Assembly: GCA_024697645.1 (NCBI GenBank)
Contig: JAILFH010000089.1
Span: 1 to 64,000, forward strand
Length of the DNA stretch: 64,000 nucleotides
Source: Prevotella sp.
Lineage (GTDB): Bacteria > Bacteroidota > Bacteroidia > Bacteroidales > Bacteroidaceae
Reading direction: 5' to 3'
Positions 179 to 4,137 of this stretch are shown in pieces. The notes under the pieces are model-generated. The model saw only the letters and a list, made by a program, of their open reading frames with translations. It was not told where the DNA came from and did not search any database. The position numbers and the translations under genes are program-made. Position 1 is the stretch's first letter; every line of letters begins with the position of its first letter.

Positions 179-622
179 ATGGCCATATCTCAAACCTTCT
201 CTCACAAAATCAACGAAGAAATGAAAAAGAATAGTATCAAAACAACGACGCTGAGCGCGCTGGTAGCCGTCAGCAAGACAGATAGTGGAATGGATTACGT
301 TCAGGTGATGCCTGACGATCCCGTAGTAGGAATGGTGGAGCCCTTTCACGGCTCTGGATACGGACAACTGCTGAGCAACGGCACGTTCGACTTTACTCGT
401 CGCAAGAGAAAGCGGAGGAAGCCCGACCTGAAACTCAAACACGGCAGTGTGTCGTTTGGCGACGATGGGTTCGACCGGATGGTGTTCGTGCTTCCGAACG
501 GTCAGCGCAAGGATTTTGCAAGGCTCTTGCTGCAGGAGGCCGCTGAAGCAGCAACGTTCGTGTACACAAGGAGCCTACCCCCAACCCCTCCCTCAAGGGA
601 AGGGAGATCAGCCCCCAAATAG
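179..622 (+). CDS. Hypothetical protein; C-terminal ~17 aa (SLPPTPPSREGRSAPK) derived from an interspersed palindromic repeat
   Basis: 147 aa ORF; basic KRKRRK segment; 3' end coincides with a cccctccctcaagggaaggga repeat. Confidence 0.5.
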   Translation: MAISQTFSHKINEEMKKNSIKTTTLSALVAVSKTDSGMDYVQVMPDDPVVGMVEPFHGSGYGQLLSNGTFDFTRRKRKRRKPDLKLKHGSVSFGDDGFDRMVFVLPNGQRKDFARLLLQEAAEAATFVYTRSLPPTPPSREGRSAPK

Positions 623-647
623 GAGCAGGAAGTGACACCCACGAAGT

Positions 648-802
648 CCCCTCCTTATTGGAAGGAGGGGTGTAGTGGAGCGAAGCGGAACGGGGGGTGG
701 TAGAGAAAAATAATGCTCGACATAATGATAATTGTTAAGACCTAGTTTCACCGCTACCACCCCTCGCTTCGCTCCACCCCTCCTCCCCGGAGGAGGGGAA
801 TA
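648..802. repeat. Inverted pair of G/C-rich palindromic elements (ggaggggtgtagtggagcgaagcgg...ggggtggta and its reverse complement)
   Basis: ccctccttattggaaggaggggtgtagtggagcgaagcggaacggggggtggta at ~650-704 is answered by taccacccctcgcttcgctccacccctcctccccggaggagggg at ~754-798. Confidence 0.75.
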
Positions 803-977
803 CGAGGGAGCCTCTTTGAACATTACGATAGCAACAAACGGGCAACTAAAGGGGAGCAATGATTTTCACTTGCCTTTGCTCCCCAAGTTCGCCCCCCCTT
901 AAAAAGAATAAATTAATAACTGAGTAGGTCTGAGGACAAACTCTCCTCTCTCCTCTCACAACTAATTTCTAGAAAAT

Positions 978-3479
978 ATGATCAATCACATTTATATAAA
1001 TAGTAGTGGACGGAAGGTCGTCCACATTGTTAACTCCCCAGAGGAGTATTTCAAACTGCGTAATTCGGAAACGAACAGGCGCAACCTGAAGCGGGCACGA
1101 CAGGGTGATGGGAACTCGAAGCGTGCGCTGATTCAGTTCAACTACAATGCACGTGTTGCCGAAGGAGAACCCTTGGCTGGCTGTTGTGCTGCCGCTTCGA
1201 CTTGTGCTGGCGACATCGACTGCTACGACGCTGAAGAGCGCGAGGCCATTGTGGCTCGCATCCTGCCTTTGGCTGAGAAACTGCAACTGCTGGAACTGAG
1301 CCGCTCTGTGAACGGTCTGCACTGGGTGCGCCGTCGTCAGCAAGGTCAGACGATTCTTGAGAATCAGGTTGCTTTCGCTATGGAAACGGGCACGGAGGTA
1401 GATACGAACGCTCACGACTTGCAGCGAGTGATGTTCACGACTACTGCCGACCCTGAAGACCTCTTGTATTTCAATAAAGCCATCTTCATAGAGATTATGA
1501 GCGAGGAAGAAAGCCGCGAGGAATACAGGGTGATGAAGGAGCGCGAGGAGAAGGGATTGGAGAATGTGCCAGAGGGAGCGAAGAAAAGTAATAAACACTT
1601 TAGCCCTTCCCCTAACCCCTCCCCCGTAGGGAGGGGAGATAGGGGCCTCTCCCCCCTTACCCCCTCTCCTGAAGAGCGAGGGGGAGTGAGCCCTTCCCCT
1701 AACCCCTCCCCCGTAGGGAGGGGAACAGGAAACTCTGAAATGGGGCAACAGCCTGCTGAAGTCTCCCCTACGGGGGGAGATTTAGAGGGGGCCACAGTCT
1801 CCCCTACGGGGGGAGATTTAGAGGGGGCTACGGGGGGAGATTTAGAGGGGGCTCCTAGTTTCAAAGGCATCCCTTATTCCTCTATCATCTCCGAATACTG
1901 GCTGCAGACTGGTGGTGAACCCCAGGAAGGTGAGCGCAATGTGAAACTGCACAAACTGGCGGTGAACCTTCGTGCCATTTGCGACAACAAGCGTGATCTG
2001 CTGATGCAGATAATGCCACGACTCGGCTTGTCGGAGCAGGAGCTGCGCTCTATCGTTGACTCTGCATGTAAGGAAGAGCCGAAGGGTATCTCGAAACGAA
2101 TGCAGGAAGTGTTGAAGGGCGTTCAGTGGAGAGAGGAGAGTGGGGTGACCGATTCTGATGCCGACGATGCTGAAGGACAGAACGACTTGGGCTCCCGGCT
2201 GAACGTGAGGATGCTGCCACTGGGTCTGAAGGAATCGCTCATTGGAGTTCCGGAAGGTATGCGAATGCCCGTGATTTGCGCAGTGATGCCCATTGCCGCA
2301 GCCTACGCTGATCAGGTAGAGGTGAAGTATTGCGACGGGAATATGCAGCGACTCGGACTGATGTCAATCATCAAAGGCGAACAAGCCTCAGGTAAGAGCG
2401 TTTGCAAACTTGCTGTGGATGTCTGGAAGCGTCAGTTTGATGAGGAAGATGCTTTGGCTCGCAAGCGTGAGGAGGAATGGAAGGAGCGCAAGAAGGCTCG
2501 TAAGGCGAACGAGAAGGCGCCCGACGACCCGAAGGTATTGATCAGAACGGTACCCGTGACGGTTTCCTGTTCTACGCTCCTGCGCCGATTCAAGAACTCT
2601 GACGGTCATTGCCTCTACTCGTTCTGTGAGGAACTCGACACGCTCCGCAAGACCAACGGCGCTGGCTCTTGGTCGTCGAAGTACGACATCTATCGTCTGT
2701 CGTTTGATAATGGTGAATGGGGACAGGACTACAACTCCGATCAGGCAGAGAGCGGTGTGGTGAACGTGGCCTACAACTGGACGATGTTAGGTACCGACGG
2801 GGCAATGCGCAAGTGCTTCAAGCAGGACAACATCGAAAACGGCCTTTCGAGCCGAGTGCTTGTTTCGGAAATGCCTGATTCCAGTTTCTCCAAGATGCCG
2901 AAGTTTGGCAGGAGGTCGGAAGACGACGAGGCCCGCATTCAGGACGCTGTGACTCGTCTGCGCTCTGCCACTGGATTCATCGACACTCCTCGTCTGCGAA
3001 AGGCCATTGAGCAATGGGTTGAAGAGAAGCGCATCGAGGCTGCGAAGGACATCGACCGCGTGAAGGACACCTATCGCAAGCGCGCTGCAGTGATTGGTTT
3101 CCGCTGTGGGGTTGTCTACTACATTCTTGCTGGCAATCACGAGACGAAATGCTGTCTGGAGTTTGCCCAACTGATGGCAGAATATGCCCTTCAGCAGCAG
3201 ATAAAAGCCTTCGGCGAGGCACTGAGAAACGAGTATGTCGATGCTTCTGACGAATGTCAGCGATACGGCAAAAACCACAGCGTGTTCGACCAACTGCCAC
3301 CAACCTTCTCAATGAACGATCTGCGAGCTCTGAAGAATGGCAAGTGTGGCGAGAGCGGTCTGCGCAGTATTGTTTTCCGTTGGCGTTCAGATGGTTGGAT
3401 TGAGAAGATAGATACCAAGCACTGGAAGAAGTCGAGTCCCGAGGCCTCACGAACACCCTCATCGCCAGTCGCAACCTAA
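978..3479 (+). CDS. VirE N-terminal / DUF3987-like (primase/helicase-related) protein carrying in-frame palindromic repeat insertions
   Basis: 833 aa; Walker-A-like GEQASGKS; layout resembles the VirE_N-DUF3987 proteins common in Bacteroidales. Confidence 0.7.
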   Translation: MINHIYINSSGRKVVHIVNSPEEYFKLRNSETNRRNLKRARQGDGNSKRALIQFNYNARVAEGEPLAGCCAAASTCAGDIDCYDAEEREAIVARILPLAEKLQLLELSRSVNGLHWVRRRQQGQTILENQVAFAMETGTEVDTNAHDLQRVMFTTTADPEDLLYFNKAIFIEIMSEEESREEYRVMKEREEKGLENVPEGAKKSNKHFSPSPNPSPVGRGDRGLSPLTPSPEERGGVSPSPNPSPVGRGTGNSEMGQQPAEVSPTGGDLEGATVSPTGGDLEGATGGDLEGAPSFKGIPYSSIISEYWLQTGGEPQEGERNVKLHKLAVNLRAICDNKRDLLMQIMPRLGLSEQELRSIVDSACKEEPKGISKRMQEVLKGVQWREESGVTDSDADDAEGQNDLGSRLNVRMLPLGLKESLIGVPEGMRMPVICAVMPIAAAYADQVEVKYCDGNMQRLGLMSIIKGEQASGKSVCKLAVDVWKRQFDEEDALARKREEEWKERKKARKANEKAPDDPKVLIRTVPVTVSCSTLLRRFKNSDGHCLYSFCEELDTLRKTNGAGSWSSKYDIYRLSFDNGEWGQDYNSDQAESGVVNVAYNWTMLGTDGAMRKCFKQDNIENGLSSRVLVSEMPDSSFSKMPKFGRRSEDDEARIQDAVTRLRSATGFIDTPRLRKAIEQWVEEKRIEAAKDIDRVKDTYRKRAAVIGFRCGVVYYILAGNHETKCCLEFAQLMAEYALQQQIKAFGEALRNEYVDASDECQRYGKNHSVFDQLPPTFSMNDLRALKNGKCGESGLRSIVFRWRSDGWIEKIDTKHWKKSSPEASRTPSSPVAT
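1602..1857. repeat. Cluster of 36-bp palindromic elements in both orientations inside a CDS
   Basis: agcccttcccctaacccctcccccgtagggagggga x2, and agtctcccctacggggggagatttagagggggcYac x2 plus a 24-bp partial copy. Confidence 0.9.
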
Positions 3480-3651: not shown

Positions 3652-4137
3652 ATGGAACTATATTTGAAGAGAATCGCAATGCGCAACCGATACACCATCG
3701 GACATTTGTATAAACAAAAAGCCTCCCCTACGGGGGGAGGTTTGGAGGGGGCTTCCTTCACCTTCCTCTGCGACACGCTCGAGCCACCGGTTTTGGCAAC
3801 GAAAACACGAATGAGCATGAGTACGGTTTTACGTTCATCTCGAAAGACTAAAATGCTGAAGCCATTCGCAATTCCGCCAGGAAGATACGCCGTAGTCATC
3901 AGTTACTCGCCGAAGTTCCAGATGTGGTTGCCCATCCTGCTCGGTGTTAAGGGGTTCAAGGGAATCCGAATCCATGCAGGCAATACGGCAAAGGACACAC
4001 AAGGCTGCATCCTCGTTGGCGAGAACAAAAGGGTGGGGCAGGTCCTTCAGTCAGGCTACACCCTGAAACGCCTGAAGCAGCTGATAGTGGAAGCGAAGGA
4101 CAAAGGCGAAGGAGTGTGGTTGAACATAACGGAATAA
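3652..4137 (+). CDS. DUF5675-like family protein with an in-frame repeat insertion
   Basis: GHLY...FLCDTLEPP...[51 protein letters not shown] motif set. Confidence 0.75.
3721..3756. repeat. Single 36-bp palindromic element inside the DUF5675-like CDS
   Basis: gcctcccctacggggggaggtttggagggggcttcc, same family as the elements at 1602-1857. Confidence 0.85.

Follow-up and report, generated by a model that had tools for sequence, protein, structure and literature searches.

Palindromic elements lying in frame in Prevotella genes and their probable kinship with the ends of a DUF559 endonuclease element

Much of what we discuss here has relatives that are already known: Rickettsia palindromic elements (RPEs; Ogata et al. 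2000, 2002) lie in frame in many unrelated open reading frames (ORFs) as well as between genes (PMC10969869), repetitive extragenic palindromic (REP) sequences, dimers included, have also been described inside genes, some of them in frame (Di Nocera et al. 2013; PMC3733652), and homing endonucleases of the EDxHD/VSR-like type, for example I-Bth0305I, are established as well (reviewed in PMC3943268). Our subject is a stretch of 64,000 nucleotides from Prevotella sp. (GenBank assembly GCA_024697645.1, contig JAILFH010000089.1, positions 1 to 64,000 of the forward strand), which we call the window, and in particular an array of 36-bp palindromic units lying in frame, and in both orientations, within a gene for a DUF3987-type protein. 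We think that these units are probably single ends, or inverted pairs of ends, of a mobile element that carries a DUF559 endonuclease gene, with the short copies representing its non-autonomous derivatives, and that the composite element is possibly a new class.

The array occupies the linker that separates the N-terminal part of the DUF3987-type protein from its conserved FKGIPY region (coordinates are collected in Table 1). The original prediction, made from the letters of the window, had placed here two copies each of two 36-mers, which we call A and B, and a 24-bp partial copy, and all of these are found in the expected places and in frame; the DUF3987 assignment was likewise recovered by Pfam (E 1.9e-6), which gave no match for the VirE_N part that had also been proposed. 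The suggestion that everything comes in multiples of 12 bp is borne out by the full copies and by the partial one but not by the spacing: successive A-type starts lie 45 and 42 bp apart, and the real length rule for the array is a multiple of 3. As had been suspected, the hairpin elements A and B are related and run in opposite orientations: their inverted arms are 78% complementary, and folding gives hairpins of 8 bp for the A core and 11 bp for the B core. The window holds four A-core matches against a mean of 0.19 in shuffled sequences, and three B-core matches against a mean of 0.30, numbers that were reached by no shuffle. Read from the sequence, A offers one stop-free frame (SPSPNPSPVGRG) and B two, one of which is used.

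In both orientations the palindromes have inserted in frame, at linkers and loops that tolerate them, and they do not represent ancestral linkers. The relatives are metagenome-assembled genomes of rumen Prevotellaceae and Bacteroidaceae. We could read the linker in 40 DUF3987 sequences, one of them from the window, and no other shares the window's linker peptide; palindrome-type peptides, as recognised by an automatic pattern, are present in 11 of the 40, mostly from other sequence families, and the remainder have unrelated linkers. No ortholog was found with the peptide and without the repeat DNA, so the predicted invasion of ORFs in Bacteroidota, in frame and in both orientations, is supported. 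The clearest series is provided by the loop of DUF5675 proteins that runs from YTIGxL to FCDTLEP, which exists as short loops (KIEEAYFCDTLE, SIGGTYFCDTLE), with single elements (NSPSPNGEGGTYFCDTLE) and with inverted pairs (LTPDPSPIERGDSKASPMGGGLEGAPLYFCDTLE); the window's own DUF5675 protein (Pfam E 1.9e-29) belongs to this family. In addition, a module of two A-type units, a spacer and two B units is shared by the window's DUF3987 linker and a DUF5675 gene on contig C15 of the same genome (170 of 187 positions identical, and the spacer 100%), so that the unit occurs in two unrelated genes. It might be asked whether ordinary low-complexity expansion of linkers, by slippage and selection for Pro/Gly-rich sequence and with no mobile element at all, would account for this. 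Such expansion fits the tandem B copies (36 and 24 bp) and the other repetitive peptides of other DUF3987 linkers, but we consider it very improbable, because the same 36-mers turn up in unrelated genes, between genes and in both orientations, because the units have hairpin symmetry, and because one of them has an exact match next to a CapD/DUF559 insertion in another species.

Across the genome to which the window belongs, a model of the A family (R1, built from an A-only alignment) finds at least 75 interspersed copies in 52 clusters, with 150 of 1006 candidates scored. Many are intergenic, often no more than about 10 bp from a stop codon, and about 19 of the 75 lie in frame inside genes, as judged from the ORFs that span them. 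Their hosts, named from motifs or profiled relatives (profile searches covered DUF3987, DUF5675 and the GAF/DUF559 protein), are DUF3987, DUF5675, the RsgA GTPase, two GH92-type proteins, an alpha/beta hydrolase, a small membrane protein, fRMsr and CapD, and further in-frame sites are the N-termini of an acyl-CoA ligase and a sugar permease. No copy in the 52 clusters clearly splits a gene out of frame, though a disrupted gene of which no half can be recognised might escape notice, and the in-frame reading stands. Where neighbours are inverted, the inward A..B arrangement is seen nine times and the opposite one twice. The exact B 36-mer, searched for genome-wide, keeps to the DUF3987/DUF5675 cassettes, which hold eight of the nine matches to the exact B core, whereas the wider family is spread across the genome.

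These units have a candidate partner in DUF559: the palindrome family brackets DUF559 genes in this genome, in the genus and in much of Bacteroidota. This genome has exactly three DUF559 matches, all three directly flanked by R1 palindromes (one of them at a contig end), and on contig C61 two in-gene palindromes bracket a DUF559 domain inside fRMsr. DUF559 is carried by 90 of 150 genomes of the genus, and the two flanks are joined by an inverted repeat (a score of at least 30 between them) at 64 of 73 genus loci, a set that takes in the 30 best-scoring loci and 40 fetched for long frames; the controls gave 0 of 29 DUF5675 loci, 0 of 27 fRMsr loci and 1 of 200 random positions (1/256 in all). 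Inverted pairs are present at 22 of 24 stand-alone and 42 of 49 fused loci, as well as at 21 of 28 loci in a sample of the phylum, and the two arms of one locus are usually near-identical while the palindrome families differ from locus to locus. As to the protein, the residues E, D, E, D, H and D are of catalytic type and conserved at 98-100% in 103 DUF559 sequences, and the nearest PDB chains are the endonuclease-like protein 3hrl (E 4.5e-14) and the ‘Mobile intron protein’ 3r3p (E 0.021), which we take to be I-Bth0305I. From its sequence, DUF559 is predicted to be a nuclease fold of VSR/EDxHD type with conserved catalytic residues.

An obvious competitor for the role of mover is RAYT, the Y1 REP-associated transposase, in which case the units would be REPIN-like and DUF559 unrelated to them or merely inserting nearby. 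Inverted hairpin pairs and a frequent location just 3' of genes are REPIN-like features (PMC3733652), and RAYTs are present in many members of the genus. Nevertheless we think this unlikely, and have rejected RAYT as the main explanation, because none (PF01797) is present in the window's own genome (an assembly 92% complete), because G010 has strong RAYTs without R1 palindromes, and because the RAYT loci of relatives are not flanked by the R1 family, compared with 88% of DUF559 loci that have pairs.

DUF559 together with its ends lies in frame within MazG, a DegT aminotransferase, CapD, an ABC-F ATPase, fRMsr, an epimerase, helicases and others, at the N-terminus of guanylate kinase (gmk), IspF and RNase H, and at the C-terminus of a GNAT-like protein; elsewhere in the phylum, motifs place it in leuS, metH and hsdR. 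Pfam finds DegT, Polysacc_synt_2, MazG and ABC_tran each in two stretches of the fused ORFs, the host domain resuming after DUF559, with ABC_tran the weaker sign of splitting since ABC-F proteins have two ABC domains anyway. Assembly error is unlikely, several cases coming from closed genomes (G140, G016), and the same site is occupied in homologous genes of different hosts for fRMsr, CapD, ABC-F, metH and leuS. We found no Rfam intron at ten DUF559 loci, and by eye no intein-type ends (Cys/Ser...His-Asn), the element ends being palindrome peptides instead, which argues against a group I or II intron or an intein. There is also a link back to the window: in the sister genome G227, the DUF559 insertion in CapD (locus L228) starts with A-type repeats (33/36) and ends with a 36-mer identical at 36 of 36 positions to window positions 3721-3756, which is followed by the window's other B type.

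The hairpin site in fRMsr holds a full element in the window's genome, a solo B-side palindrome in G227, and in G223 a full element of another lineage, with a plain turn in most genomes. The two full copies belong to different DUF559 lineages, being 50% identical and apart in the DUF559 tree (a tree of few columns with many unresolved forks), which suggests that they inserted independently. DUF559 copies in degT and ATP-grasp, which are unrelated host genes, are 82% identical and grouped in the tree, and the N-terminal fusions to gmk, IspF and RNase H form one clade. The fusion to guanylate kinase recurs at 13 loci of the genus (L178, L188, L210, L214, L219, L222-L225, L227, L229, L232 and L236) and may be domesticated. 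Separately, at locus L233 in G302 a pair of almost identical DUF559 elements point in opposite directions, with about 2 kb between them; one is fused to RNase H, the other to a PfkB-like kinase.

How far do palindromes and DUF559 go together? In 16 mostly near-complete genomes, palindromes are present in seven of eight with DUF559 and one of eight without (Fisher p=0.005, with genomes counted as independent). Several points weigh against our proposal, beginning with this association, which comes from hand-picked genomes and ignores kinship. G032 has 28 palindromes and no DUF559 detected, G160 has a DUF559 and 0 palindromes, and the B-type family is without a DUF559 partner in its own, 92% complete assembly (a partner is present in G227 and G173). 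We saw no element move, and the fRMsr series is too diverged to define a target-site duplication; the single clade of N-terminal fusions is consistent with old, possibly domesticated insertions; and, given the unrelated low-complexity peptides in DUF3987 linkers, part of the pattern comes down to the site being tolerant. The strongest rival is that DUF559 is a homing-type parasite of the spacer within pre-existing palindrome pairs, so that the palindromes would be its target and would have spread by another route. This we hold to be the less likely account, if a serious one: palindrome pairs without DUF559 are common, and some insertion sequence (IS) elements are known to use REPs as targets (PMC1525189), but palindromes are missing from most DUF559-free genomes (seven of eight), and within a locus the two arms are usually almost the same, with families varying between loci.

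Returning to the reading that the units are ends of a DUF559 element, a complete element would consist of an A-palindrome, the ORF of a VSR/EDxHD-type endonuclease and an inverted B-palindrome, and the window's palindromes would be non-autonomous, translatable copies lacking the endonuclease, either as single ends or as A-spacer-B pairs. The endonuclease might cut or nick DNA, with host repair or replication then copying the element in; the hairpin ends would be what the endonuclease recognises, and the short copies could be moved in trans or by recombination. Selection would then remove frame-breaking copies, and the survivors would be translated because each orientation has a stop-free frame whose peptide is low in structure (Pro/Gly/Ser-rich). 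Endonuclease-triggered copying is the most economical mechanism, although movement itself is something we infer.

Compared with described systems, the palindromes work like RPEs and REPINs, and yet they fail membership in both. As with RPEs, a palindromic unit lies in frame in ORFs of unrelated function, and the Rickettsia likeness that had been drawn at the outset is fair as a description of behaviour but incomplete, since it leaves aside their match to the inverted ends of DUF559 endonuclease elements. That they are a true Rickettsia-type RPE family, acquired horizontally, is something to which we give almost no credence: the behaviour is indeed the same, palindromic and in frame in ORFs as well as intergenic (PMC10969869, PMC3733652), but RPE-4 and RPE-6 of R. 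conorii end in CGTC (PMC3733652) and RPEs measure about 100-150 bp (about 150 bp in the comparison with our 36-bp unit), whereas the copies here have AGCC.../AGAC... ends (AGCC...GGCT-type), measure 36-40 bp, belong to Bacteroidota, occur in tandem and inverted pairs and are linked to a DUF559 endonuclease gene. With REPs and REPINs they share hairpin units of 20-40 bp that occur singly, in tandem or as inverted dimers and mostly fall between genes, close to 3' ends, with some in frame inside genes; in place of a GTAG or CGTC end tag, however, their interior side is variable and AGTRRWTA-like (GTAG in only some copies), the genome has no RAYT, and the gene that they flank encodes a DUF559 nuclease of PD-(D/E)XK type. 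DUF559 resembles EDxHD/VSR homing endonucleases in its weak sequence relationship to 3r3p and in occupying the same gene sites across species, but there is no intron or intein, it is translated in frame with its host and bracketed by coding palindromes, and closely related copies are also found in unrelated genes. Finally, miniature inverted-repeat transposable elements (MITEs) likewise have terminal inverted repeats, a short spacer and a presumed autonomous partner; the differences are the frequent in-frame coding insertion and a partner that is an endonuclease and not a known transposase.

Table 1. Palindromic elements of the window and the genes around them
Feature	Position	Strand	Basis
Host gene 1, DUF3987-type protein, 833 aa, single open frame; palindrome array in linker	978..3479	+	Pfam, orthologs
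A-type palindromic element, copy 1, SPSPNPSPVGRG	1602..1637	+	sequence, R1 model
Divergent A-like element around SPLTPSPEERGG, 61% identity; overlooked in the original prediction	1647..1682 (approx.)	+	
A-type palindromic element, copy 2, 100% identical to copy 1	1689..1724	+	
Non-palindromic spacer ACAGGAAACTCTGAAATGGGGCAACAGCCTGCTGA, 35 bp	1725..1759	+	identical stretch in DUF5675 gene, contig C15
B-type palindromic element, copy 1, VSPTGGDLEGAT; opposite orientation to A	1760..1795	-	
B-type palindromic element, copy 2; the two B copies 97% identical	1796..1831	-	
Partial B-type element, 24 bp	about 1832..1855	-	
Host gene 2, DUF5675 protein; invaded in loop YTIGxLY / FLCDTLEP	3652..4137	+	Pfam
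Solo B-type element, in frame in DUF5675, 12-residue peptide; overlooked in the original prediction	3721..3756	-	36/36 match in G227 L228
A-type element forming the C-terminal end of upstream ORF 179-622, SLPPTPPSREGRSAPK*; overlooked in the original prediction	571..607	+	
Inverted pair of other palindromic repeats, non-coding and resembling REPINs, in the intergenic stretch from ORF 179-622 to the DUF3987 gene	630..816	.	

Some further features of the genome deserve mention. Contig C99 holds a copy related to the divergent A-like element, and the C44 paralog of ORF 179-622 has a different C-terminal end. The intergenic pair consists of GC-rich repeats (GGAGCGAAGCGG... / ...CGCTTCGCTCC) and represents a second palindrome family of this genome. 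Several partial copies of the ORF147-DUF3987-DUF5675 cassette (C15, C44, C50 and C99) reach contig ends, and the linker repeat mosaic differs in each, while an intergenic array at C61:18333-18848 has five same-strand palindromes with conserved inter-unit sequence of about AGCGGGACAAAGGAGGCCCC. Short tandem peptides of other kinds (TIEPIETIEP, SLDKNNSLDQN, GGDLKSP...IANPDEQ) occupy the DUF3987 linkers of L018, L026, L066 and L068, and since these unrelated peptides share one linker, it is a general landing or expansion site. Weak microRNA and internal ribosome entry site matches in the window were put down to chance or to the intergenic inverted repeat, and an AlphaFold model of the window's DUF5675 protein (pLDDT 43) was not used.

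In the open-licence literature we found no account of DUF559 genes with coding palindromes on either side, nor of DUF559 residing in frame and unspliced in host genes. Whether Bacteroidota harbour a new class of element, in which DUF559 bracketed by inverted coding palindromes enters conserved and often essential genes without breaking their frame, stays unspliced in the finished protein and is accompanied by swarms of non-autonomous 36-bp copies, is a matter on which we find ourselves evenly divided. Read as footprints, Pro/Gly-rich inserts in Bacteroidota proteins, such as NPSPVGRG, would be explained as traces of mobile DNA, and the DUF559 fusions would offer a route by which nuclease domains join essential enzymes (guanylate kinase, IspF, RNase H). 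To our knowledge, coding selfish palindromes have so far been viewed mainly as a Rickettsia curiosity whose mover was not known. The same behaviour is now seen in a phylum that is dominant in gut and rumen, and it comes with a candidate enzyme of about 125 aa; this candidate, together with the natural occurrence of one site in empty, solo and full form, makes the question of what moves coding palindromes a testable one.
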